Below, one piece after another: positions 6,678 to 20,557 of a DNA stretch of 64,000 nt. How positions within the stretch are numbered: the first letter of the stretch is position 1; each line of letters opens with the position of its first letter. This DNA comes from Actinopolyspora erythraea (GTDB lineage: Bacteria > Actinomycetota > Actinomycetes > Mycobacteriales > Pseudonocardiaceae), in assembly GCF_002263515.1 (NCBI RefSeq), contig NZ_CP022752.1, positions 62,001-126,000 on the forward strand, written 5' to 3'. The position numbers and the translations under genes were made by a program. The notes below the pieces were generated by a model, which was not told the origin of the DNA, did not search any database, and worked only from the letters and a program-made list of their open reading frames with translations.

Positions 6678-8102
6678 ATGTCTTCTTCTGTTCCCATGAA
6701 GTGCTACGCGAGCCAGGCGAAGGACCTGCGGGCCAAGATGGCGGGTACGCCGGATGCTGCCCAGCTTCCTACGCCGAGCGGCCAGGGGTCCACGGCGTTG
6801 GATGTCGCTTCGCAGAAGTTCGAGAGCATCATCAACACAGTCGACGCCGCGTTGACTAAGGCCGAAGAGGCCCACGAGGGCCGCGCTGCCGAGATCGCCA
6901 GGTCGTCGGTGTCCGCGATCAAACCGGTGGCCAACAACGCGGCCGACTTCTGCAAGTCGGTTCAGAACTCGCTGGACGACCAGGCCAGCACGCAGCACAA
7001 GACCTTCCAGGAGCTTCCGGCCGAGGGTGGCAAGCTCTCGGACGGCCGCCCCGCTCAGATGGAGCCGCCGGACAAGAATTGGGCGGACAACACCGGGGTC
7101 AGTGACGTCCCGTTGATGGGCTGGACCAGCGACTACGAGGAGAAGCAGGAGCGCTACCGGGCCACGAACGAGGAAGCCAACCGCGTGATGGCCCAGTACG
7201 AGGAGCAGACCTCCTCCGCGACGCAGAGCCTGCCCGAGTTCAAGCCGCCGGAGGACTCCGACACCGACGCTTCCCGCCAGGCCGACTACGGCCCCGGCGC
7301 GGGCAGCGTGGTCGCGGGCAGCACCTTCGACAGCGGCGCGGGATCGGGTTCTTCGGTGCCCGCCTCCTCGTCCTCGGCCTGGACCGCCGGTTCCGGTGGT
7401 CTCGGCGGAGGGTCCGTCGGTGGCGGTTCCTATGCTCCCTCCGGCGGTTCCGGCGTCGGCGGCGGCTCCTACACCTCGCAGCCGCCCGCCAGCTCCGGCT
7501 CGGCGTGGGTGAATCCCTCGACGGGCGGTTCCTCGGGCAACGGTCTGCCGCCGGGAGCGGTGCGCGGCTCGGACGGCACTATCTACCGGCAGGGCCCGGA
7601 CGGCGGCTGGCAGCGGCAGAACCCGTACAACGGCCGCTGGGCCCCCGCCCCGAACGGGCCGCCCGGAGTCTCCGGCGGAGGTCGTGCCGGTGGTTCGGGC
7701 GGCGTCGGCGGTGCCCGCGGTGGCGACGGTTACACCGGCCGTTCCGGGGGTTCCGGTGGCCTGGGCGGTGCCCGCGGTGGCGGCGGCGGTTACGCCGGCC
7801 GTGCCGGTGGCCTCGGCGGCACCGGTGCCGGTGAGCCCGCCGGTGGCCGTTCCGGAACCGGTTCGTTCGGCCCGAAGGGCAGCGGTTCGACCGTGGCCGC
7901 CGGGACCAACGCGGCCGGTGGCCGTGGTGGCGGGATGCGCGGCGCCCCGATGGCCGGTGCGGGCGCCCGCCAGGCCGGCGGCGAGGAAGAGGAGCACGAG
8001 CGCCCCAGCTGGCTGGTCGAGGACGAGGACGTCTTCACCAACGACATGCAGCGCGTCGCTCCGCCGGTGCTCGGCGAGACCCCCTACGAACAGGGCCGCT
8101 GA
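6678..8102 (+). CDS. PPE-like / type VII secreted Gly-rich protein
   Basis: 474 residues from ATG 6678, which follows AAGGTGGGGGTA (a GTG nine nt earlier is also in frame). Residues 1-185 are helical and Ala/Glu/Lys-rich, resembling the PE/PPE-type four-helix region of actinobacterial ESX substrates, with a conserved-looking W near residue 153. Residues about 205-430 are a Gly/Ser/Pro-rich low-complexity tail built from GGSGG-like units. The end, SWLVEDEDVF..D..RVAPPVLGE, is the C-terminal signature of Pseudonocardiales proteins of this class. The next gene is EspG, the dedicated chaperone of PPE proteins. Export by an ESX system encoded elsewhere is inferred. Confidence 0.78.
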   Translation: MSSSVPMKCYASQAKDLRAKMAGTPDAAQLPTPSGQGSTALDVASQKFESIINTVDAALTKAEEAHEGRAAEIARSSVSAIKPVANNAADFCKSVQNSLDDQASTQHKTFQELPAEGGKLSDGRPAQMEPPDKNWADNTGVSDVPLMGWTSDYEEKQERYRATNEEANRVMAQYEEQTSSATQSLPEFKPPEDSDTDASRQADYGPGAGSVVAGSTFDSGAGSGSSVPASSSSAWTAGSGGLGGGSVGGGSYAPSGGSGVGGGSYTSQPPASSGSAWVNPSTGGSSGNGLPPGAVRGSDGTIYRQGPDGGWQRQNPYNGRWAPAPNGPPGVSGGGRAGGSGGVGGARGGDGYTGRSGGSGGLGGARGGGGGYAGRAGGLGGTGAGEPAGGRSGTGSFGPKGSGSTVAAGTNAAGGRGGGMRGAPMAGAGARQAGGEEEEHERPSWLVEDEDVFTNDMQRVAPPVLGETPYEQGR

Positions 8103-8154
8103 CCGAGATCCGGCCCTCGGCCCCGTCGGAAGTCCCGCTGGAGCGGGGCGAGGC

Positions 8155-8191
8155 CACCGGCCGTCCCGCGACCACGCCGGGACGGCCGGTG
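8155..8191. terminator. Perfect 14-bp hairpin between PPE-like gene and espG
   Basis: CACCGGCCGTCCCG at 8155-8168 and its exact reverse complement at 8178-8191 around a 9-base loop. There is no T-run on either side. It stands 53 nt after the PPE-like stop and 135 nt before the espG start. It could limit read-through into espG or protect the upstream mRNA end. Confidence 0.6.
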
Positions 8192-8325
8192 CGATCCGGA
8201 CCGGGGCGATCGCTCGCCGGGTGACGGGCGTCCGGTGCCCCGCGCCGAACACCCGCCGCCTGAGCCCCCCCGACCACACACCGCGCCCGGACGGACCGGT
8301 GCGCGGAGCCCAGGAAACAACGGAA

Positions 8326-9141
8326 GTGACGGTGCGGAACCAGATCTCTGTCGGCCCGGCGGCCGCCATCTACCTGTGTGAGCGTTACGACCTGATGCTC
8401 CACCCCCTGCTCCGGGTGGGAATGCTGTCGGTGCAGCTCGACGAGGAGGAACGGGTCCGGATCCCCGAGGAGGGCCGGGCCGAGCTGCGACAGCAGGGGC
8501 TGCTCCAGACCGACGAGGTGCACCCCTTTCTGGACGACGCCTGGCACTTGCTCGCCTATCCGCCGCTGGCGGTGGGCATGGCGGTGCGCGACGACGAGGA
8601 GAGCTTCAACGCGGTGCTCGTCGAGCAGGGGCGCGGCACGCTGCGGGCCTACCAGGCCGATGCGGACGAAGCCGGGGCGGCGGAGAACATCCTGCTGGAC
8701 CGCCAGGAGTACGGCGGGCTCGGTGGCAACGCTGTCAAACTGCTCGGTGAGCTCGAACCACTCTCCGGTGGCTCGGCCAGCGTGCCCACCGAGCTGCTCA
8801 AGCAGGCGGGGCAACGGATGGGCGCCGACCCCTCCGGCAGCGCGGTGAGCGCGCTCGCCGCCTCCGGCATCCGGCAGAACGACGCGCGGGTGCTGGCCAA
8901 CGTCATGACCACCCCGCGCACCACCGAGGCCCTCATCACGGCCCGTAGCCACGACCGCAGGGTCAACAGGACCCACAAGCTGCCGGTGACCCTGCAGGTC
9001 TTCCGCACCGCGCAGGGCTGCTACATGACGCAGCGCAGCGCGGGCAGCGACGGCCGCGAGTGGTTCACCGTCGCTCCCGCCGACCAGCGCAAGGTCACCG
9101 CCAAGGTCGAGGAGATGCTCGAACACCTCCGCCGGGACTGA
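8326..9141 (+). CDS. EspG-family ESX secretion chaperone
   Basis: 271 residues from GTG 8326, preceded by CAGGAAACAACGGAA; a longer open frame upstream runs through the hairpin and overlaps the previous gene in another frame, so it is rejected. The sequence fits EspG: an N-terminal strand region (ISVGPAAAIYLCERYDLMLHPLLR), alternating strands and helices, a run near the middle mentioning LLKQAGQRMGADP, and the C-terminal beta part (LQVFRTAQGCYMTQRS..GREWFTVAPAD). EspG proteins bind PPE partners in the cytoplasm and deliver them to the ESX machine. The preceding PPE-like gene is the obvious client. Confidence 0.82.
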   Translation: MTVRNQISVGPAAAIYLCERYDLMLHPLLRVGMLSVQLDEEERVRIPEEGRAELRQQGLLQTDEVHPFLDDAWHLLAYPPLAVGMAVRDDEESFNAVLVEQGRGTLRAYQADADEAGAAENILLDRQEYGGLGGNAVKLLGELEPLSGGSASVPTELLKQAGQRMGADPSGSAVSALAASGIRQNDARVLANVMTTPRTTEALITARSHDRRVNRTHKLPVTLQVFRTAQGCYMTQRSAGSDGREWFTVAPADQRKVTAKVEEMLEHLRRD

Positions 9142-9385: not shown

Positions 9386-10720
9386 TCAGCTGCCCAGCAC
9401 CCGCGCCAGGTAGGGGTTGCCGAACACCCGCTCCGGGTCGAGCCGGTCCCGCACCCGCAGGAAGTCGTCGAACCTGGGGTAGCGGGCGCGCAGCTCCGCC
9501 GCGGTGAGCCCGTGCATCTTCCCCCAGTGCGGCCTGCCGTCGGCCTCTCGCACGATTCCCTCGAAGGTGTCGAACCACTCGCGGTAGGGCATCCCGCTGT
9601 ACTGGTGGACCGCCACGTAGGCGGTCTCGCGTCCGTGCGCGGTGGACAGCCAGACGTCGTCGGCCGCGGCCACCCGCACCTCCACGGGGAACATCACCGG
9701 GTGGCGCAGCCGCCCCACGGTGCCGCGCAGCCGCTCGATCACCTCCGGCAGCCGTTCGCGCGGGACCGCGTACTCGCTCTCCACGAACCGCACCGTCCTG
9801 CTGGTCACGAACACCCGGTGCGAGGTGTCGCCGTAGGAGCGTCCCGACCAGGTTGCGCCGCAGATCCGGTTCAGCCGCTTCACCGTCGCGGGGCTGCGCC
9901 TGCCCAGCTCGCAGGCGAGTCCGAACAGGCCGTTCTCCAGCACGCGGTACTCCAGCCAGGAGCGGAGCGGGTGCAGCGGGCGGGGCCGCTCGTGCTCGGG
10001 CACCCGGTTGTTGCGCTTGACCAGGGTGCGCGTGCTGTGCGGGAACCAGTAGAACTCGAAGTGGTCGTTGTCGGCGGCGAGCCTGTCGAACTCGCCCAGC
10101 ACCTCGTCGAGCCCACGGGGGTGCTCCTCGGCGGCCAGGGCGAACGCGGGGACGCAGCGCAGCGTGACCGTGCTGATCACCCCCAGCGCGCCGAGCCCGA
10201 CGCGGGCGGCGTGGAACACCTCGGGTTCCTCGGTGGGGGAGCAGCGCAGCGTGGAGCCGTCGGCCAGCACCAGTTCCATCGCCAGGACCTCGGTGGCCAG
10301 CCCGCCCAGTTCCGCGCCGGTGCCGTGGGTGCCGGTGGAGATCGCGCCGGCCACGGTCTGGCGGTCGATGTCGCCGAGGTTGGGCAGCGCCAGTCCCAGC
10401 CGGTCCAGCTGTTCGTTGAGCAGGTGCAGCGGGGTGCCGCCGCGCACGGTGACCGTGCCCCGGTCCCGGTCCACATCGGTGATCCCGCTCCATTCCGACA
10501 TGTCCAGTGCCATCGATTCCTCGTGCGCACCGGCGGGCAGCGGCGCGGCGATGTCGCTGAACGAGTGACCGGAGCCCAGGGGGCGCACGCCGTGGCCGTT
10601 CGCGCGGGCCTCGGTGACGAGACGAGAGAGATCGGCCGCGTGGCGCGGCCGTGCGGTTCCGCTGCCGGGGGCGACGGTCGTGTTCGCCCAGTTCGACCAA
10701 GTGGTTCGGGTGATCTTCAT
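9386..10720 (-). CDS. FAD-linked sugar-1,4-lactone oxidase (ALO/GULO family)
   Basis: 444 residues. N-terminal FAD-binding PCMH domain with G-S-G-H-S-F-S-D at 49-56 (the His is the usual covalent flavin site) and GTHGTGAE near 130. The C-terminal ALO domain carries the H-W-G-K motif at about 396-399 followed by YPRFDDFLRVRDRLDP. The family oxidises aldonolactones (L-gulono-, D-arabinono-) or polyols such as xylitol/alditols, giving hydrogen peroxide or reducing cytochrome; which substrate is used here cannot be told. It is divergent from an alanine-racemase-fold deaminase gene with an 86-bp gap, a neighbourhood commonly kept in actinobacteria. ATG start. Confidence 0.9.
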   Translation of the reverse strand: MKITRTTWSNWANTTVAPGSGTARPRHAADLSRLVTEARANGHGVRPLGSGHSFSDIAAPLPAGAHEESMALDMSEWSGITDVDRDRGTVTVRGGTPLHLLNEQLDRLGLALPNLGDIDRQTVAGAISTGTHGTGAELGGLATEVLAMELVLADGSTLRCSPTEEPEVFHAARVGLGALGVISTVTLRCVPAFALAAEEHPRGLDEVLGEFDRLAADNDHFEFYWFPHSTRTLVKRNNRVPEHERPRPLHPLRSWLEYRVLENGLFGLACELGRRSPATVKRLNRICGATWSGRSYGDTSHRVFVTSRTVRFVESEYAVPRERLPEVIERLRGTVGRLRHPVMFPVEVRVAAADDVWLSTAHGRETAYVAVHQYSGMPYREWFDTFEGIVREADGRPHWGKMHGLTAAELRARYPRFDDFLRVRDRLDPERVFGNPYLARVLGS

Positions 10721-10806
10721 GAGCGCATCGTCCTTCCGCCGCCGATTGACGGAAAATTATGTGAATATCTCTCGCGTAACAAGGGGTGCGGGCTTACCTT
10801 GAATGC

Positions 10807-12090
10807 GTGACCTCGTCGGCAGCACCAACCATCGCCTGCTCCGCGGCACGACTGGACGCCGTGACCGCCGAGCTGGACCCACCCTTCGGAGTGGTCGATC
10901 TGGCCGCGTTCGACCGAAACGCCGCCGAGCTGGCCGGCCGGGCCGCGGGAAAGCCGATCCGGCTCGCCACGAAGTCGCTGCGCTGCCCCGAGCTGATCCG
11001 CCGTGCGCTGCGCTCGCCGGGATACACCGGCCTGATGTGCTACAGCCTTGCCGAAGCGCTCTGGCTGTACCGGCTGGGAACCTCCGACGACCTCCTGGTC
11101 GCCTACCCCACCGCCGACCGCGCCGCCCTCGCCGAACTGGCCGCGGATCCGGCGGCCGCCGCCGCGGTCACGCTCACCGTGGACTCCACGGCCCAGCTGG
11201 ACCTGATCGAACGCGCCGCCTCCGCCGCGGGCGCCAGCGGGCGGCTGCGGATCTGCCTGGAGATCGACGCCGCCTGGCGTCCGCTGGAGGGATCGGTGGC
11301 CGAACGCGTCCCCCGCCTCGGAGCCGAGCTCGCCGAGCGGTCGCACATCGGGCCGCTGCGCTCGCCGGTGCGGTCGGCGCGGCAGGCACGCGAGCTGGCC
11401 CGGGAGGTCCTGCGGCGTGAGGGCTTTCGGCTCGTGGGCCTGATGCTCTACGAGGGGCAGATCGCGGGAGTCGGTGACGCCCCACCCGGGCAGCCGCTAC
11501 GCGCGGCTGCCGTGCGCTGGGTGCGGCGACGTTCGGCCGTGGAACTCGCCCGTCGTCGTGCGGCGGTGGCCGAGGCCGTCGGTGAGCTCTGCCCGCTGGA
11601 GTTCGTCAACGGTGGCGGGACCGGGAGCCTGGAGACGACGACCACCGAACGAGCCGTCACCGAGGTGGCGGCGGGTTCCGGACTGATAGGACCGGGCCTG
11701 TTCGACGCTTACGAGGCGTTCCGCCCGCTGCCCGCCGTGCTGTTCGCGCTGCCGGTGGTACGTCGTCCCGGACGTCGTACCGCCACTCTCTTCTCCGGCG
11801 GGTACACGGCTTCCGGGGCCGTCGGCGCGGACCGCCTTCCGACCCCCCACCTGCCGAGTGGGCTGCGGCTGACCGGAACCGAGGGCGCCGGGGAGGTGCA
11901 GACCCCGGTCGTGGGGCCGGGAGCACGGGGGCTCCGGCCGGGTGATCGGGTTTGGTTCCGGCACGCCAAGGCGGGAGAGCTGGCCGAGCGACTCCACGAG
12001 TACCACCTGCTCGAATCCCGGGAAGCGGGACAGGACCACAGGGTCGGTGCCGTCGCCACTTACCGGGGGGCGGGCAAGTCCTTCGGCTGA
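10807..12090 (+). CDS. PLP-dependent amino acid deaminase/aldolase (alanine racemase fold)
   Basis: 427 residues from GTG 10807 (another GTG 21 nt upstream is in frame; no clear ribosome site at either, so the mRNA may be leaderless). Residues about 25-290 form the alanine-racemase N-terminal barrel, with the PLP lysine in R-L-A-T-K-S-L-R (Lys56). A C-terminal D-serine-dehydratase-like beta domain follows, including GDRVWFRHAKAGEL near residue 385. Homologues are called amino acid deaminase/aldolase or D-threonine aldolase-like; the substrate is unknown. The 3' end overlaps the convergent TetR gene by 31 bp. Confidence 0.85.
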   Translation: MTSSAAPTIACSAARLDAVTAELDPPFGVVDLAAFDRNAAELAGRAAGKPIRLATKSLRCPELIRRALRSPGYTGLMCYSLAEALWLYRLGTSDDLLVAYPTADRAALAELAADPAAAAAVTLTVDSTAQLDLIERAASAAGASGRLRICLEIDAAWRPLEGSVAERVPRLGAELAERSHIGPLRSPVRSARQARELAREVLRREGFRLVGLMLYEGQIAGVGDAPPGQPLRAAAVRWVRRRSAVELARRRAAVAEAVGELCPLEFVNGGGTGSLETTTTERAVTEVAAGSGLIGPGLFDAYEAFRPLPAVLFALPVVRRPGRRTATLFSGGYTASGAVGADRLPTPHLPSGLRLTGTEGAGEVQTPVVGPGARGLRPGDRVWFRHAKAGELAERLHEYHLLESREAGQDHRVGAVATYRGAGKSFG

Positions 12091-12707
12091 TCCTCCGAGA
12101 TCCTGCTGGACAGGTAACCCCGGACCAGCTCCCTGGCCTCGTTGACCAGCGTCGGATCTCCCTCGGGCGCGCGCCGGAACGCCAGGTGCAGCACCGCGTC
12201 GGCGGCCTCCACCGCCACCGAGAGCGGAAGCTCCAGCTCCCCGGCGGTCATGCCGAACCGCTCCGAGATGAGACTGGTGAGCTTCTCCGCGATCACCGCG
12301 TTGTTGTCCTTGGTCTCGTGCAGCAACCGCAGGTCCACCACGTCGCCGAAGTGCAGCTTGCTGAACGCGGGGATCTCCCGGTGCATCCCCAGGTAGACGT
12401 CGAAGACCGTGTCCACGGCGTCCCACCAGTGGGCGAGTTCGCTCCGGTCCAGCCGCTCGGAGACCGTCTGCACGAAGCGGTCCAGGTTGCGCAGCGTCAG
12501 CTCCTGCACGACCGCGCGCTTGTCCGGAAAGAACTGGTACAGCGAGCCGACCGCGACACCGGCTCGTTCGGCTATCAGCGTCGTGGTCAGCCCGTCGTAG
12601 CCCACCTCGTCGATGAGCTGCGCGCAGGACTCCAGCATTCGTTCCACGCGCTGGGCACTGCGTTGTTGAACGGGCTTGCGGCGCAACGGGGCTACTTCGG
12701 TGGGCAA
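12060..12707 (-). CDS. TetR-family transcriptional regulator
   Basis: 215 residues from a TTG start at 12707, preceded by AAGGAG five nt upstream; a longer in-frame ATG at 12785 has no such site. The helix-turn-helix is at about 35-62, ending G-S-L-Y-Q-F-F-P-D-K, the standard TetR phrase. The rest is the all-helical ligand-binding domain, resembling the TetR C-terminal domain with ELPLSVAVEAADAVLHLAF. Effector unknown. It overlaps the deaminase gene tail to tail and is divergent from the isonitrile-synthase fusion gene 520 bp away, so that gene is a plausible target. Confidence 0.88.
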   Translation of the reverse strand: MPTEVAPLRRKPVQQRSAQRVERMLESCAQLIDEVGYDGLTTTLIAERAGVAVGSLYQFFPDKRAVVQELTLRNLDRFVQTVSERLDRSELAHWWDAVDTVFDVYLGMHREIPAFSKLHFGDVVDLRLLHETKDNNAVIAEKLTSLISERFGMTAGELELPLSVAVEAADAVLHLAFRRAPEGDPTLVNEARELVRGYLSSRISEDQPKDLPAPR

Positions 12708-13227
12708 GGTGACTCCTTGATCATATCCGAGCTCCAGGTTTTCCCGGACCGAGTCCGAGGCGCGCCGCCGGGGCCAGCCTGGCAAGCGGCACGGCTTGCC
12801 TAGTCTCGCGCTCTTGCAGCGATCATGCTTCCTGAGCGGCCCTTCAGAGTGTCAGTCGATAGGGTGAGCAGCGATCTTCCGTTCGTCCGGCCGCCGTCGT
12901 CATCGCTCCGACGAACCCTTCCGACGCCGGCGGGCCCCACGCACGATCCGGATCGCGTTCCGCGATTATGCACCCCGTCACATTGGCGGCGAAAAAGATC
13001 ACTCAGTAGCGTGATCCGTTGTGTCCGAGCCGTTCGGGAGCTTCCCCCGCACGACTACTCGTTGGTTGACTCTCGCGGTTCCGGGGTGGCACATGGTGTT
13101 GTCTGACCGTACGCATCGCTGTCCGCAACCCCGGCACCCCTCCGCCCGGTCACCCCGAACCGGGCGGGCTCGATCGCGGAGCCCGGTGTCTCCGCCCACG
13201 GCCGGAGGAAGAGCAAGGAGATACCCG
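12708..13227. promoter_or_regulatory. Divergent intergenic region with inverted repeat
   Basis: 520 bp with no supported gene, between the TetR gene (-) and the isonitrile-synthase fusion (+). An inverted repeat GATCAC-N8-GTGATC lies at 12997-13016, the size of a TetR-type operator. The frame of the fusion gene is open up to 13021, but that stretch has no ribosome site and atypical residues, so it is treated as leader. Confidence 0.5.
12997..13016. promoter_or_regulatory. Inverted repeat, candidate operator
   Basis: GATCAC at 12997-13002 and GTGATC at 13011-13016, separated by TCAGTAGC. It lies about 210 nt before the fusion gene start and 290 nt before the TetR start. The role is inferred from position only. 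Confidence 0.35.
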
Positions 13228-16200
13228 TTGGACGGTCGGCCCCGGCTTGACCCCGAGGAGAACACGGCCCCGCCGTTCGGGACGTGGCCGTTGGACGTGG
13301 CGCTGGCCAACTCCGTGCTCGCGGGTGGTGAGTACGGAGTGCGCGTCGTCCGGCAGGACGGCCTGACCAGGCTGGTCGGACAACGTGCGGGCACCGGGGT
13401 TTCGCTGGGAAATCCCCCGACCTGGCGACAGCTCTACCGGATGCTGATCCGGCTGCGACTCACCCGCAGGCGCCGCGATCCGGCGTGGCTGGCCCTGCTC
13501 ACCGAGGTCCTGGACCCCCCGCGCGCTGATCCGGAGCGCGGCGGTTCCGTTCCGGAGGACGCCGGTGCCGAATGGCTCAGGTTCGCCGGGATGCTGGCCG
13601 AGCACCCGGCGCCCCGGATGCACTGCGCCACCGCCGAACCCCGCCGTCCCGACGGCGCGGCGGGACGGTTGGGCGAGCCCGCCCCCGCCCATCCGGCCTT
13701 CCCCGGCGGAACCATCGCCGTACGGCTGCCCGCCCTGCTGCGGACCGACCCCGCGCTGGGGCACACCCTGCTGCGGGAGGTGATCACCAACCGCTTCGAG
13801 CGCCGCGAGAACGCCGCGCGTTACTTCCTCGAACACTTCGTCCGGCCGCCGCTGCGGGCGTTCCGGCTCGCGCTGGAAAGCCCGAGGGGGATGCTGCTGA
13901 GCCCGAGCGCGGACACCCTCGCCGTGGAGCTCTCCCCCGAGACGCAGGCCACCGGAAGATTCGTCGTGACCCCCGGCACGGCGGTGCGCGAGGTGGAACG
14001 GGTCACCCCCGGTGAGGTCCACGAGGGGGTGCGCGAACTGGTCCACACGCTCCGGAAGTTGTCCGAGACGTTCGAACGCGAGGAGTTCGGCGAGCACGAG
14101 CGGACGCGGCGCGGCGAGTTCCGCGCCGCCATGCGGCGGGTGATGGCCGCGGAGCTGCGCGACCTGGAGACCGGCAGCGCCGACGTGCTGGCCGGTGACC
14201 ACCCGCTGCGCGGTTTCGTCCACACCGTTCCGGCCGAACAGGACGAACTGCTCCGGAGGGTGCTGCGCACCGTGCAGGAGCGCACCCGGCTGCGCAGGTG
14301 GAACCGCGATCTCGGCCAGCCGGTCGTGGTCATAGACGTGGCGTCGTGCGGCCTGCTGCCGGAACGAGTCCCCGCCCCGGAGCAGTCCGGGCCCGAGCCC
14401 TACCGGAGCCGACAGGGGCTCGACGCGGTCGCCCGTACGGTGGGGCGCGACGAACAACCGCACCGCTGCCGGGCGGAGAGCGGCGGCCCGCAGGAGCACG
14501 CCGGTACGTCCGGCCGGATTCCTCGGGAGCGGGAACCCCACCGGCCCCCGGAAACCGTGTGGGACCCGCCCACCGCGGAACTGGCCGAACTGGACAACCG
14601 GGCAACCGCCGCGACCGGCTCGGGGCTGCCCAGGTTCGTCTGGGACGTCCGCGACGCGGGCGGGAGGGTGGTCTTCTGCGCACTCGGTTCCGAGCGCGAC
14701 TACGAGCACGCGCGGGCGCTGCTGGACCGCGCCGGGGTGCCAGAGGCCGAGCTGATCCGGGTTCCGGGAAACGGTACGGGCACGGCCGTGGAGTGGACGG
14801 TGTGCAGGTTGCGCGAACTCGGCGACGTCGACGTCGTGGCGGTCTTCGAGACCGCCGCCACCGCCCCGAGGAGCGGCGAGCTCGCCGGGGTGCTGACCGT
14901 GGCGGTGTCCGCGCACGGTGATCTCCCCCGGCAGCGGAACGGGAACCGGAACACCGCTGCCGGGCCCCGCACCTCGTCGGAGGGCAAGGATCCCGTGATC
15001 TCCAGTTTCGAGACCTCGCCCTGGCGGCGGTCCGCCCGCGCGCAACCGGTGCTGTCCAACACGCACTCCCTGGAAGAACTCCAGATCGCCTCGTTGCGGG
15101 AGAACCGCAGCGCCTGGCGCTGGGCGGTTCGGCTGACTCGCGCGGAAACCGCGTCCATGGTGGAGGCCGTGCTCGACGACGCCGACCGCGCGGCCGAGCG
15201 AACCGCACGCGGCGCGGTGGCGAAGTTCGCCGCCGACGAGCCCGTCGCCGATCCGGCGGAACGTTCGCGTCGCACCGTCGGCGCACTGCACCACGTGTTC
15301 ACCAGGAAGCAGTTCCTCAAGGGCTCGCGGTCCAACTACCTGGTCGCCGACATGCACCGCGACGCCGACCACTTCGTGACCCGGGGCGAACCCGTGGAGG
15401 TGATGCTGCTCGGGTTCCCGGTCAAGCAGTCCCTGAACCGGCTGAAGGCGTGCGGGCCGCTGCCGGACATCGCCGAGCTCGGCGGGCTGATCCGGCTCCG
15501 TGAGCTGCAGCGCGCGGCGCGCGGCGTTCACCCGCCCGGGCTGCGGTTCAACATCCTCACCGACGGCAGGCACTTCCGCCCCCGACCGGCTTCGGTGACC
15601 GCCGCCTACACCCGCAAGCTGCACGAGTACGCCTCGATGGTCGGCCTCGACGGCTGCGTGTCCATCCGCGAGATCGACTCGCTGGCCACCGAGCGGTTCG
15701 GACGAGAGGTGACCGACCGCCGCCCCGCGATGTACGAGCGCTTTCGGCGTTCACTCGAACAGGCGCTGCGCGGGCTCGACATCACCGATCACCCGCTGCG
15801 GACACTGGAGCGGGTGCGGGACCGGGCGGACGCGCAGCTCGGGCCGGACTCCGAGATCACCGCGCGTTCGCTGTACCTGTTCCGCGAGATGGTCATGTCC
15901 ATGGTCTACTCCGTGCCGGTGCCCACCCCGGCGGGAACGGATCGGCTCGGTTGGGCCAGGCGGGTTTACGCGGACGTGTACAACCTCGACGACGCCCGCC
16001 TCTCGTCGCGGCTGCGGCAGGCGCGTGTCGCGGTGCTCCGCCGCGCCTGGCACAACGCCGTCCGCTACCTGTCCACCATGCGGGTGGACGAGGAGCTCGG
16101 TTACGAGAAGCTGTTCGACCCCAGGGTTCGGCTCACCGTGAGCGCGGTGACCAAGGGGCGCTGCGGATTCACCTACCTGGGAGGCTCCGGGCTGCTTCCC

Positions 16201-16428
16201 TGGCAGGGGACCGGGGTGCTGGACAGCCGGGGTTACGTGGCGGTGGACTTCGCGGTGTCGTTGATCGACCAGGGGTTCGTCCCCGCCTTCTCGCCACTGC
16301 TGGGGCCGCGGCAGCCGCTGATGATGGTTCCGCCGCAGTACGCCCGGCTCCCCTCGCGGGGGACACGCGCTCCGGGAACCCGGCTGGACGAGGCGTTGCG
16401 GGAGAAGGCCCGACTGCGCCGTAAGTGA
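13228..16428 (+). CDS. Multidomain protein with C-terminal Dit1/PvcA isonitrile-synthase domain
   Basis: 1066 residues from TTG 13228, which follows AAGCAAGGAG-type SD GCAAGGAGATACCCG; longer frames upstream lack one. Residues about 690-1040 carry the pyoverdine/dityrosine (Dit1/PvcA) signature: G-F-P-V-K-Q-S-L-N-R-L-K at 729-740, G-P-L-P-D-I-A-E at 743-750, PPGLRFNILTDGRHF at 769-783. Known members turn Tyr or Trp plus ribulose-5-phosphate into the isonitrile. Residues about 362-560 look HAD-like (VVVIDVASCG at 366-375, VVFCALGSERDYE at 481-493), but the second motif-I Asp is Ala372. Residues 1-350 are unrecognised; PPLRAFRLALESPRGMLL (207-224) faintly recalls IucA/IucC synthetases, without their catalytic residues. 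No oxygenase partner is adjacent. The domain call is firm; the product is unknown. Confidence 0.8.
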   Translation: MDGRPRLDPEENTAPPFGTWPLDVALANSVLAGGEYGVRVVRQDGLTRLVGQRAGTGVSLGNPPTWRQLYRMLIRLRLTRRRRDPAWLALLTEVLDPPRADPERGGSVPEDAGAEWLRFAGMLAEHPAPRMHCATAEPRRPDGAAGRLGEPAPAHPAFPGGTIAVRLPALLRTDPALGHTLLREVITNRFERRENAARYFLEHFVRPPLRAFRLALESPRGMLLSPSADTLAVELSPETQATGRFVVTPGTAVREVERVTPGEVHEGVRELVHTLRKLSETFEREEFGEHERTRRGEFRAAMRRVMAAELRDLETGSADVLAGDHPLRGFVHTVPAEQDELLRRVLRTVQERTRLRRWNRDLGQPVVVIDVASCGLLPERVPAPEQSGPEPYRSRQGLDAVARTVGRDEQPHRCRAESGGPQEHAGTSGRIPREREPHRPPETVWDPPTAELAELDNRATAATGSGLPRFVWDVRDAGGRVVFCALGSERDYEHARALLDRAGVPEAELIRVPGNGTGTAVEWTVCRLRELGDVDVVAVFETAATAPRSGELAGVLTVAVSAHGDLPRQRNGNRNTAAGPRTSSEGKDPVISSFETSPWRRSARAQPVLSNTHSLEELQIASLRENRSAWRWAVRLTRAETASMVEAVLDDADRAAERTARGAVAKFAADEPVADPAERSRRTVGALHHVFTRKQFLKGSRSNYLVADMHRDADHFVTRGEPVEVMLLGFPVKQSLNRLKACGPLPDIAELGGLIRLRELQRAARGVHPPGLRFNILTDGRHFRPRPASVTAAYTRKLHEYASMVGLDGCVSIREIDSLATERFGREVTDRRPAMYERFRRSLEQALRGLDITDHPLRTLERVRDRADAQLGPDSEITARSLYLFREMVMSMVYSVPVPTPAGTDRLGWARRVYADVYNLDDARLSSRLRQARVAVLRRAWHNAVRYLSTMRVDEELGYEKLFDPRVRLTVSAVTKGRCGFTYLGGSGLLPWQGTGVLDSRGYVAVDFAVSLIDQGFVPAFSPLLGPRQPLMMVPPQYARLPSRGTRAPGTRLDEALREKARLRRK

Positions 16429-17337: not shown

Positions 17338-17676
17338 CTACGGCACCGGCGCCGCGCGGCGCAAGGCCTGCGCCGGGCGCAGGTGCCGTGCGGGACGGGG
17401 TGCGAGGCCACCGGCCACCAGGTGCTCGTAGGCCGAGCGCCATACCGCGCAGGGTGCCTTGCGCTGGCGCAGTCGGGTCGAGCACTCCGGGCAGTTGCCC
17501 CGTTCGTCCGGTTCGTGTGCGGTCAGCAGCGTCCGCCACCCCGCCGTGAGCCGCGGGATCTCGGAGCGCGCTACGGACAGCAGGGACGACGCATCCGCGC
17601 GGTTGGCGAGCTCGGAGAGCACGTCGAGCCGCTCCCAGACCGCGTTGCGCAGAACCTGTCCCAGGATCGCGTCCAC
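17338..17676 (-). CDS. Conserved small protein with Cys pair, unknown function
   Basis: 112 residues. The first 45 are helical; then N-C-P-E-C (about 62-65) and, later, A-P-C-A-V-W-R-S-A-Y-E-H-L, a possible metal site made of three Cys. Start at 17676 (ATG). It begins 12 nt after the stop of the next gene upstream, so the two form an operon. Proteins of this look occur next to XRE regulators in Pseudonocardiales, and a TPR-XRE regulator is divergent 500 bp away. The C-terminal ~25 residues are Arg/Pro-rich and may be weakly constrained. No function assigned. Confidence 0.6.
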   Translation of the reverse strand: MDAILGQVLRNAVWERLDVLSELANRADASSLLSVARSEIPRLTAGWRTLLTAHEPDERGNCPECSTRLRQRKAPCAVWRSAYEHLVAGGLAPRPARHLRPAQALRRAAPVP

Positions 17677-17688
17677 CGTACGTCACCG

Positions 17689-17964
17689 TCACTTTCTCGC
17701 CTGATCAGCGGCGAACCGCAGCGCGGAGCTGAGTTGACCGACGCGGTCGGTCGGCAGCGCCGCGGTTGCACCGGGCGGTCCGGCGAGAACCACCCTGTCC
17801 CTATCGAGGAGCACCTCCAGGGTCCGGGGAGCGTGGTCCACCCCCCGGCACCGCACCCGCAGTCGATTCGCCCCGGCGGTCTCCCCGGAGTCGTCGTGGC
17901 GGTCTTCCGGTCGGGGGACGGGCCCCACCGACTCCGGTTCGCCGGACTGCTGGAAGGAATCCAC
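17689..17964 (-). CDS. Small conserved protein, unknown function
   Basis: 91 residues from a GTG at 17964. The C-terminal half, LEVLLDRDRVVLAGPPGATAALP.DRVGQLSSALRFAA, is a compact strand-loop-helix unit typical of short Pseudonocardiales proteins found beside helix-turn-helix regulators. The N-terminal third is acidic and polar. First gene of a two-gene unit (17338-17676 follows after 12 nt), divergent from the XRE-TPR gene at 18186 with a 221-bp shared control region. Confidence 0.6.
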   Translation of the reverse strand: MDSFQQSGEPESVGPVPRPEDRHDDSGETAGANRLRVRCRGVDHAPRTLEVLLDRDRVVLAGPPGATAALPTDRVGQLSSALRFAADQARK

Positions 17965-18185: not shown

Positions 18186-19568
18186 ATGAACACCATCGGT
18201 TCGAGCGGCTCTCTCGTTACACCCGAGGTCTGGGAGGGACGGGAGATGCGCCAAGCACTGGCCAATCGCGACATCAGCGACATCTACAAGCTGTTGCGCA
18301 AGCACGGTGTCTCGCAGCGTCAGATCGCCGCTGCTACCGGTCAGTCGCAGTCCGAGGTTTCGGAGATCCTCAAGGGCAGGCAGGTCATCGCCTACGACGT
18401 GCTGGCCCGGATCGCGGATGGTCTCGGCGTCCCGAGGGGGTACATGGGCCTCGCCTACGACGGGGCGACGGCAGTGAGAGCCACCGAACACGAACCGAGT
18501 GGCTCCCCGGCTGAGGAGGACGAGACGGTGAAGCGTCGGAAGTTTCTTACCCATGCCGCGGCGGTTGCCATGGGGGCTTCTGTCTTCGGTGCCGAGGAGG
18601 GGGAGTGGATGATGTCCAACGCCCAGACTCCGGCACCCTCGCGCATCGGCATGACCGACGTTCAACAGATTCAGGCGGCGACCAAGGCCCTGCGTGATCT
18701 GGACTACCGGCACGGCGGGGGGACTTGCCGTGACGCTGTCGTGGCCCAGCTGAACTGGGCGAGACAACTGCTGCACGCCGACTGCTCCGAACACGTCAAA
18801 CAGCGGCTGTTCGTGTCGTTGGCCGACATGCACAGCCTCGCGGGGTGGACGTCGTTCGACATGGGGCTGATGGATCCCGCGCGCAGTCACTTCGGCAAGG
18901 CGTTGCAGTTCGCCAAGCAGGCCAACGACGACAGCCTGGTCGCCAACGTGCTCTACCGCATGGGGCGGGTGTACCTGCATTACCAGCAGCCGAACGAGGC
19001 GCTCAAGCTGTTCCAGCTGGGGCAGATCGCCGCGCAGGACTCCGGTTCGGCGCTGACGGTCGCCGTGATGTGCGCGAACGAGGGCTGGGCCTACGGCATG
19101 CTCAACCGCCCCGACCAGGTCGAGAAGATGCTGGGGCGCACCAGGGACGAGTTCGCCAGGGCCGACCTCAACGAGGAGCCGGACTGGGTGAAGTTCTTCA
19201 ACCGGCACGACCTGCACGGCATGACCGGTTCGGTCTACGACGCCCTGGCGGAGTTCACTCCGGAGCGGTACGCCCCGCTCGCGGTCTCCGAGACGCTCAA
19301 GAGCAACCAGTCGTACGGGGACAACATGCAGCGCAGCCACGTGTTCATGCTGGGTATGCAGGCGACCAACCACATGAGGTCGGGCGACGTCCAGCAGGGG
19401 ATCAAGGTCGGCAGGCAGGCGCTGGAACTCGGTGCGCTGGTCAAGTCGGCGAGGGTTCCCGACCGGCTGCGGCCCTTGCAGCTGGAGGCGGCCAAACACA
19501 CCATGAACCCGGACGCGCGTGACTTCGCCGAGCAGGTCCGCACCTTCCGCGAGGCGCGTTCGGTTTGA
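18186..19568 (+). CDS. XRE regulator with C-terminal TPR-like domain
   Basis: 460 residues from ATG 18186. Helix-turn-helix at about 30-75 (SQRQIAAATGQSQSEVSEIL), a linker with a KRRKFLTHAAAVAMGAS stretch that looks like a degenerate membrane/secretion segment, then helical repeats of TPR type to the end (LADMHSLAGWTSFDMGLMD, VLYRMGRVYLHYQ, EALKLFQLGQ). Proteins of this architecture in Streptomyces and relatives (for example NsdA-like regulators) affect sporulation and antibiotic production; the signal is unknown. Divergent from two small genes, a neighbourhood that suggests mutual control. The next gene starts 63 nt downstream. Confidence 0.88.
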   Translation: MNTIGSSGSLVTPEVWEGREMRQALANRDISDIYKLLRKHGVSQRQIAAATGQSQSEVSEILKGRQVIAYDVLARIADGLGVPRGYMGLAYDGATAVRATEHEPSGSPAEEDETVKRRKFLTHAAAVAMGASVFGAEEGEWMMSNAQTPAPSRIGMTDVQQIQAATKALRDLDYRHGGGTCRDAVVAQLNWARQLLHADCSEHVKQRLFVSLADMHSLAGWTSFDMGLMDPARSHFGKALQFAKQANDDSLVANVLYRMGRVYLHYQQPNEALKLFQLGQIAAQDSGSALTVAVMCANEGWAYGMLNRPDQVEKMLGRTRDEFARADLNEEPDWVKFFNRHDLHGMTGSVYDALAEFTPERYAPLAVSETLKSNQSYGDNMQRSHVFMLGMQATNHMRSGDVQQGIKVGRQALELGALVKSARVPDRLRPLQLEAAKHTMNPDARDFAEQVRTFREARSV

Positions 19569-19630
19569 GCCCGACCACCGGTGGTCGGAAGAAGCGCGGA
19601 ACCGGTTCGACCACACCGAGAAGACACAAC

Positions 19631-20557
19631 ATGACACCGGCCGACATGACTTTCCCGCCGAAGTCGGCACACGCTGCCGAGATTCCGCCCGAACTCGAAA
19701 CGGCGCTGGCCCGGGTGTGCGCCGAGGCAGGCCTCGATCACCGTGGTGCGCGCCTGTTGCGGTTCGTCAACAACGGGGTCTTCCTGCTGCGGGAGCATCC
19801 CGTGGTGGTGCGGATCGTGCTCTCCCCCTCGCTGGCCTACCGGGCGGACAACGTGGTCGAGGTGGCCCGCTGGTTGGCCGAGCACGGTGTGGACTCCGTG
19901 CGGTTGTATCCCGGTGTCTCCCAGCCGGTGCGGGTGGGGGCGCACGTCGCCACCCTCTGGGAGGAGGTCTCCGACTCCGGTGTCGAGCCCACTGGATACG
20001 ACCTGGGCAAATTGCTGCGCGAGCTGCACTCCCTGGGGGAGCCCCCTTCGGTTCCGGAGTGGCAGCCGATGGGCGACGCGCGGCGCCGGCTGGCGGAGGG
20101 GGAGGGGGAACTCGACCGCGCCGATCGGGATTTCCTGAAGCGGCACTGCGACGACGTCGAACAGCGGCTCTCCGAACTGGAGTTCGTGCTCCCCCGCAGC
20201 GCCGTGCACGGCGACGCGCACCTGGGCAACGTCATCGTCGGACCGGACGGGCCGGTGCTGTGCGATTTCGACTCGCTGTGCGCCGGGCCCCCGGAGTGGG
20301 ACCTCACGCCCATGGCGGTGGGCTACCTGCGGTTGGGGCGCTCGTCGGTCGCGTACCGGCAGCTCGTGGAGGCCTACGGTTTCGACGTGACCGACTGGCC
20401 GGGTTTCCCGGTTCTGCGGGACTTGCGCGAACTCAAAATAACCGTGAGTGTGCTTCCGAATCTTCGCGGTAACCCGGGGGTCGCCGACGAGTTTTATCGA
20501 CGGTTGCGTTCGATGCGTCAGCGGGATTTCACCGTGCGTTGGTTCCCTTACCGCTGA
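19631..20557 (+). CDS. Aminoglycoside-phosphotransferase-fold kinase
   Basis: 308 residues from ATG 19631 (a TTG overlapping the previous stop gives a longer, Arg/Thr-rich extension that looks untranslated). Kinase-like fold with a short N-lobe (LLRFVNNGVFLLREHPVVVRI), catalytic loop H-G-D-A-H-L-G-N at 193-200 and metal motif C-D-F-D at 211-214. The family phosphorylates small hydroxylated compounds, including antibiotics, choline and fructosamines; the substrate cannot be inferred. It lies downstream of the XRE-TPR regulator on the same strand and could be co-transcribed with it. Confidence 0.82.
   Translation: MTPADMTFPPKSAHAAEIPPELETALARVCAEAGLDHRGARLLRFVNNGVFLLREHPVVVRIVLSPSLAYRADNVVEVARWLAEHGVDSVRLYPGVSQPVRVGAHVATLWEEVSDSGVEPTGYDLGKLLRELHSLGEPPSVPEWQPMGDARRRLAEGEGELDRADRDFLKRHCDDVEQRLSELEFVLPRSAVHGDAHLGNVIVGPDGPVLCDFDSLCAGPPEWDLTPMAVGYLRLGRSSVAYRQLVEAYGFDVTDWPGFPVLRDLRELKITVSVLPNLRGNPGVADEFYRRLRSMRQRDFTVRWFPYR

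Follow-up and report, generated by a model that had tools for sequence, protein, structure and literature searches.

A solitary three-domain protein of Actinopolyspora erythraea with a Dit1/PvcA-like domain behind NIS-like and degenerate HAD-like domains

PvcA-type enzymes join the nitrogen of tyrosine or tryptophan with a carbon of ribulose-5-phosphate (PMC7949033; PMC7345447), and the yeast protein Dit1 is similar to these bacterial isocyanide synthases (ICS), its product being most likely formyl tyrosine and not an isonitrile (PMC7345447). Dit1 is a single-domain protein (PMC5974471) with a cytochrome P450 partner, Dit2 (PMC10153163), and the architectures surveyed in these two further papers include single-domain ICS, ICS-dioxygenase and ICS-nonribosomal peptide synthetase (NRPS). 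Here we describe a gene in a 64,000-nucleotide stretch of Actinopolyspora erythraea (the window; C1:62001-126000 of an assembly that is one contig of 5.24 Mb), whose product carries a Dit1/PvcA domain behind a fold of the NRPS-independent siderophore (NIS) synthetases and a haloacid dehalogenase (HAD)-like domain. It has three domains where Dit1 has one, and its likeness to Dit1 is one of description. The fungal ICS-NRPS CrmA and the ICS-dioxygenases XanB and IsnAB are likewise multi-domain proteins built on an isocyanide-synthase domain, but with other fused domains (PMC5974471), and the available parts of the surveys do not list a NIS-HAD-PvcA arrangement (PMC5974471, PMC10153163). Similarly, no paper on such a fusion was found among the open-licence PMC papers; the proteins are already in databases under a family name.

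The gene occupies 13228..16428 on the plus strand, stop codon included, and its open reading frame, coordinates and length of 1066 residues are exactly those given by the initial annotation, which had also read a Dit1/PvcA signature in the last third of the protein. The three strings quoted for that signature (GFPVKQSLNRLK, GPLPDIAE and LRFNILTDG) are all present in the translation, and PF05141 (DIT1_PvcA) is matched at 53.4 bits against a cut-off of 26.4 (residues 715-845, profile positions 3-137 of 273). Once profile-profile and structure comparison were added the whole PvcA domain was covered, with the DIT1_PvcA fold over its full length, and based on Pfam, these two comparisons and motif alignment we place the domain at residues 675-1066 (15250..16425, plus strand). 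It resembles PvcA/IsnA (PDB 3e59, 9dh4, 9dhm) in fold over nearly the whole domain and in the motifs K...N..K..G.(L)PD..E and DG..F. The segment GFPVKQSLNRLKACGPLPDIAELG (residues 729-752; 15412..15483, plus strand) retains K733, N737, K740, D747 and E750, which are invariant in 30 canonical rows, and the canonical DG..F motif is kept as D779, G780 and F783 in ILTDGRHFR (residues 776-784; 15553..15579, plus strand); together with P746 these residues make up the first-half invariant set of PvcA/IsnA, all of it kept. In an alignment of 64 rows, the window protein and 63 homologues among the matches listed, K733, K740, D747, E750 and D779 are invariant in every row.

The second half of the domain differs. 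The histidines of the SIHP and PWH motifs, invariant in 30 of 30 canonical rows, are replaced by Ser972 and Gln993, so that SIHP reads TVSA and the canonical TPWH motif is found as LPWQGT (residues 990-995; 16195..16212, plus strand); the canonical rows come from one bacterial family, in which the two histidines may be catalytic. The alignment with characterised PvcA/IsnA that had been proposed as a check therefore came out in two parts, the K/N/K/PD/E/DG..F residues being retained and both invariant C-terminal histidines replaced. The protein stays far below the cut-off of the NCBIfam equivalog TyIsonSynPvcA (23.6 bits against 600), and it also differs from PvcA/IsnA in its length and its two extra domains (the 3e59 and 9dh4 chains have approximately 315-330 residues) and in that a PvcB-type oxygenase is missing from the genome.

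Additionally, we determined the ratio of nonsynonymous to synonymous substitution rates (dN/dS) by the Nei-Gojobori method for each domain, comparing the window gene with the relatives L002 to L007. Against L002, L003 and L004 the PvcA domain had a ratio of 0.10, the N-terminal domain 0.26-0.30 and the HAD domain 0.40-0.45 (0.29-0.32 in its core); against the closest relative, L007, the three ratios were 0.12, 0.22 and 0.52, respectively. All values were higher against the more distant L005 and L006 (PvcA 0.23-0.24, N-terminal domain 0.36-0.38, HAD 0.57-0.60), and L002 compared with L003 and L004 gave 0.14 and 0.09 for PvcA and 0.50 and 0.42 for HAD. The gene is under selection, with the C-terminal domain mattering most, and the PvcA domain is under strong purifying selection.

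We tentatively read the protein as a self-contained member of a three-domain family (NIS-like fold, HAD phosphatase and Dit1/PvcA) of which, in this genus, the C-terminal Dit1/PvcA domain would be the working part. With its retained residues the PvcA domain would still bind a substrate that carries an amine and also a ketose phosphate, which in PvcA is ribulose-5-phosphate, and the amine would receive a one-carbon unit. As both histidines are lost and there is no PvcB-type oxygenase, a simple N-modified compound, for example a formamide as with yeast Dit1, would be a likelier product than a tailored vinyl isonitrile. At first the HAD domain would have served to hydrolyse a phosphate ester connected with this reaction, later becoming dispensable, and the NIS-like domain would no longer activate carboxylates and would act as a binding or docking module.

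The HAD-like middle spans residues 361-597 (14308..15018, plus strand) and has the HAD fold, with Nir2, T4 PNKP and acid phosphatases as the folds matched; class B acid phosphatase, the PNKP phosphatase and the LNS2 domain of Nir2 thus share the fold of this region. Among 13 family members Acid_phosphat_B was matched in six (best E 6e-6) and HAD_PNKP weakly in three. The catalytic motifs I to IV of HAD enzymes are DxD, T/S, K/R and DD. Unlike HAD phosphatases, the window protein has lost five of the six catalytic positions, retaining D370 and carrying A372, A485, T524, E541 and T542 elsewhere; the replacement of the second motif-I aspartate by alanine, as originally noted, is real (Ala372), and four more catalytic positions have gone as well. 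The cap is lost too, since residues 379-462 (14362..14613, plus strand), where relatives have a HAD cap, form a disordered stretch with a predicted local distance difference test (pLDDT) score under 50. With arginine counted as lysine and serine as threonine, all six positions are present in 38 of the 64 rows, one is lost in 14 and two or more in 12, P0001 being without five. The state of two or more lost positions changes seven times over the 64 rows, at least six of the changes being forced by well-supported branches of the C-terminal-domain tree, and for the clade of six rows to which the window protein belongs, a single loss is the simplest account.

Residues 13-360 (13264..14307, plus strand) have, by predicted structure and fold comparison, a shortened NIS-synthetase (IucA/IucC) fold without the NIS motifs sought, and in the comparison with IucA/IucC, AcsD and DesD most of the NIS chains align only from approximately their residue 120-160 on. 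HPWQ and H.(E/Q)N, which we take to be the ATP-site motifs of NIS synthetases, occur in the first 450 residues of 0 and 1 of the 64 rows, respectively, and PF04183 had no match in 13 family members at E up to 10. All 30 PF04183 loci gave a frame with both motifs, but these rows were picked by the motifs and are no independent control. In hhalign the family against the NIS rows reached 17% probability (P 1.4e-3) in a plausible register, compared with 0.3% for PvcA against the NIS rows as control; a smaller family alignment gave 9%, and three runs in which the NIS rows had been poorly extracted reached 1.9%, 3.4% and 2.9%. The relation to NIS synthetases lacks proof at the sequence level and the claim therefore rests on the fold, so that the IucA/IucC feel first remarked for the N-terminus is supported by structure and not by any Pfam match. 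No stand-alone relative of the N-terminal domain was found at E up to 0.001 among the 7994 candidates sharing most words (proteins of approximately 0.55-1.75 times its length). A conserved linker with LSNTHSLEELQ (residues 601-674; 15028..15249, plus strand) leads into the PvcA domain, and a similar SHAxSL stretch begins the short stand-alone Dit1-like proteins. Two proteins of genus g43 outside the 64 rows (L045:9135-12479 and L046:7527-10871) miss the HAD motif-I aspartate, and they retain PWH and a remnant of the NIS motif, LHDKN or LHEKN.

The suggested survey of homologues showed that the fusion is a widespread family. A PF05141 match was present in 98 of 297 family genomes, and 54 of the 297, including all ten of the window's genus, had a low-scoring match (below 71 bits) in a frame of at least 950 residues; the A. 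erythraea genome itself has one PF05141 gene, whose closest named homologues belong to Actinopolyspora. Members are widespread in Saccharopolyspora, S. erythraea (P0018) among them, and occur also in Nonomuraea (P0065), Kribbella (P0090) and metagenome-assembled genomes of Micromonosporaceae, and many relatives bear the source name L-tyrosine/L-tryptophan isonitrile synthase family protein. A class-wide search of 394 genomes, with a profile that contained one full-length row, gave matches in 10 genomes besides the own one, all of 43-55 bits; as it scored two candidates per genome, absence of these proteins outside the taxonomic family does not follow. The 458-491-residue forms of other genera consist of linker and PvcA domain, and 25 proteins were retrieved when one of these forms served as query. 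We also observed short Dit1/PvcA-like proteins of 425-491 residues without the NIS-like and HAD domains (L058:6987-8462, L060:9158-10534 and L059:9280-10557). Genus g26 often has a second, shorter paralogue on the same contig approximately 7-10 kb away, as does S. rosea (L009). Four such paralogues in Saccharopolyspora-type genomes are giant Dit1/PvcA-like proteins of 805-962 residues, encoded directly behind the APH gene described below (L049:11084-13501, L050:5763-8384, L051:5220-8108 and L009:17599-20208). By eye these four rows have complete HAD motifs, and PWH is present in three of them.

The gene lies approximately 75 kb from dnaA (C1:862). Among single-contig genomes the giant form is found 39-90 kb from the contig start in nine (G000, G012, G013, G052, G076, G099, G101, G137 and G224) and elsewhere in ten (G023, G043, G057, G079, G117, G120, G129, G142, G158 and G177); the contig start relative to dnaA was established for the own genome, and positions in the others are distances from the contig start. 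The neighbourhood, from script-called genes, has a recurrent order: a flavin adenine dinucleotide (FAD)-linked oxidoreductase with an ALO domain (9386..10720, minus strand), a pyridoxal phosphate (PLP) enzyme with Ala_racemase_N (10786..12090, plus strand), a divergent TetR-family regulator (12060..12785, minus strand), the giant gene, two small genes, an XRE helix-turn-helix regulator with tetratricopeptide repeats (XRE-TPR; 18186..19568, plus strand) and an APH-family phosphotransferase (19565..20557, plus strand). Across 30 loci, in which three genomes occur twice, the ALO gene was found 22 times, the PLP gene 17, TetR 25 and XRE-TPR and APH 27 times each. All five belong to the core synteny; the divergent TetR gene of the initial annotation is present, but it is part of this core and not a dedicated regulator of the giant gene.

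At 12 of 12 family loci without a Dit1-like match the ALO, PLP, TetR, first small (c5), XRE-TPR and APH genes stand together; 11 of the loci share the gene order, ALO and PLP being exchanged in G029, and the second small gene (c7) was matched in 10. Of these genomes, G109 has its giant gene at another locus, and in G017 a short form lies downstream. Among 120 family genomes, 111 gave a match for XRE-TPR and 99 for the PLP enzyme. The giant gene of genus g20 has another location, where a GntR gene is its nearest upstream neighbour and more distant genes encode other regulators, a GNAT enzyme, a 3-hydroxyacyl-CoA dehydrogenase and a peptidase. The neighbours are core genes that occur together without the giant gene and are therefore uninformative on its function. 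A single pathway of the giant gene with the TetR, PLP racemase-like, FAD oxidoreductase, XRE-TPR and kinase genes, for which their recurrence around the gene in the 30-locus set could speak, is rejected because the same block stands without the gene at 12 of 12 loci, and with the counts among the 120 genomes and the other surroundings in g20 we regard it as highly improbable. The scan of 14 window genes (6669 to 27998) turned up neither a TauD- or P450-type oxygenase nor an NRPS, as initially stated; across the genome PF02668 (TauD) had no match at E up to 0.001, and the nearest P450 matches, at C1:1316283 and C1:4714936, leave none within 0.6 Mb if the contig is circular.

Of the other genes around the block, the two small ones (window 17338-17964; 112 and 91 residues, without Pfam match) are conserved and keep their position in many family members, whether or not the giant gene is present, and an EspG-family gene of ESX secretion (7684-9141) lies near its left part. 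In the Actinopolyspora loci L002, L003 and L004 the PLP enzyme was not found beside TetR, a gene of cluster c22 standing there instead (approximately 7800-8780). The L058 short form directly follows the XRE-TPR/APH pair, and that of L060 lies approximately 6 kb beyond it. The giant gene begins with TTG at 13228, 7 bases after a putative ribosome-binding site AAGGAG (13215..13220, plus strand) in a stretch conserved upstream in several Actinopolyspora relatives, and the homologue P0003 begins with the matching MDGRPRL. Between TetR and the giant gene (12786-13228) there are blocks conserved in Actinopolyspora, for example around 12824-12869 and CGCGATTATGCA at 12961-12972. In 15 upstream regions, no IdeR-, Zur- or CsoR-like consensus box fell below the best of 100 shuffles; the nearest candidates were Zur-like strings with 5 mismatches upstream in L008 and L049.

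The source name of many relatives suggests a true isonitrile synthase, which would turn tyrosine, tryptophan or another amino acid and ribulose-5-phosphate into an isonitrile, the extra domains being ornaments. The PF05141 score above the cut-off and the retention, up to R832, of 15 out of 22 near-invariant positions agree with this, but the replacement of both C-terminal histidines, the low score with the PvcA equivalog model and the failure to find a PvcB/TauD gene in the genome make it unlikely. The initial annotation had offered both a self-contained enzyme for a new isonitrile and a repurposed domain; Ser972 and Gln993 fit the former less well, and we prefer the latter because both invariant histidines are lost while the domain is under strong purifying selection. 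It is somewhat doubtful, too, that the protein is a pseudoenzyme that senses a ligand or serves as scaffold or regulator. On that reading none of the three active sites would be sound in Actinopolyspora, for which the missing NIS motifs, the five lost HAD positions and the two lost PvcA histidines speak, yet the full HAD set in 38 of 64 rows, the five PvcA residues invariant in all 64 and the strong selection on the PvcA domain are at odds with such a role.

Some points weigh against an active Dit1/PvcA domain as the working part. Only 25 of 51 canonical near-invariant positions are retained, with an alignment that is unsure in mid-domain, the chemistry is argued from homology, and if no reaction of this fold could proceed without the lost histidines, the domain would have no catalytic activity. 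The contrast in selection fades between L005 and L006 (PvcA 0.20, N-terminal domain 0.31, HAD 0.28), and the HAD core is still constrained in Actinopolyspora (dN/dS about 0.3 against L002 to L004); being constrained and, between L005 and L006, evolving no faster than the N-terminal domain, the HAD domain is not simply junk. From the sequence, an active enzyme with changed chemistry appears reasonably supported, because the first-half polar residues are kept and strongly selected, the two histidines are changed and no PvcB-type enzyme is present; an outcome more Dit1-like than PvcA-like would be a guess at the product. The fusion first proposed, with Dit1/PvcA behind a degenerate HAD and an IucA/IucC-like start and standing alone, is borne out by Pfam, fold and gene neighbourhood.

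Dit1 serves the yeast spore wall, and Actinopolyspora forms spores. It is conceivable, although speculative, that here the PvcA fold has shifted to a new non-isonitrile amine-modifying chemistry in a tripartite, one-gene metabolite maker, into which a siderophore-synthetase fold and a phosphatase were incorporated and then disarmed, and which would be passed on mostly at a single site, within a conserved block close to the replication origin, with a physiological job (e.g. development or metal handling) and not one in a secondary-metabolite cluster. Genome mining by the name isonitrile synthase would count this family among the isonitrile producers, a label not to be trusted because the C-terminal motifs are altered and the oxygenase is missing. 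The membership of S. erythraea makes the product searchable in a tractable strain, and the family offers a natural series, with one domain dead several times and another tightly selected, in which the role of each domain is testable.
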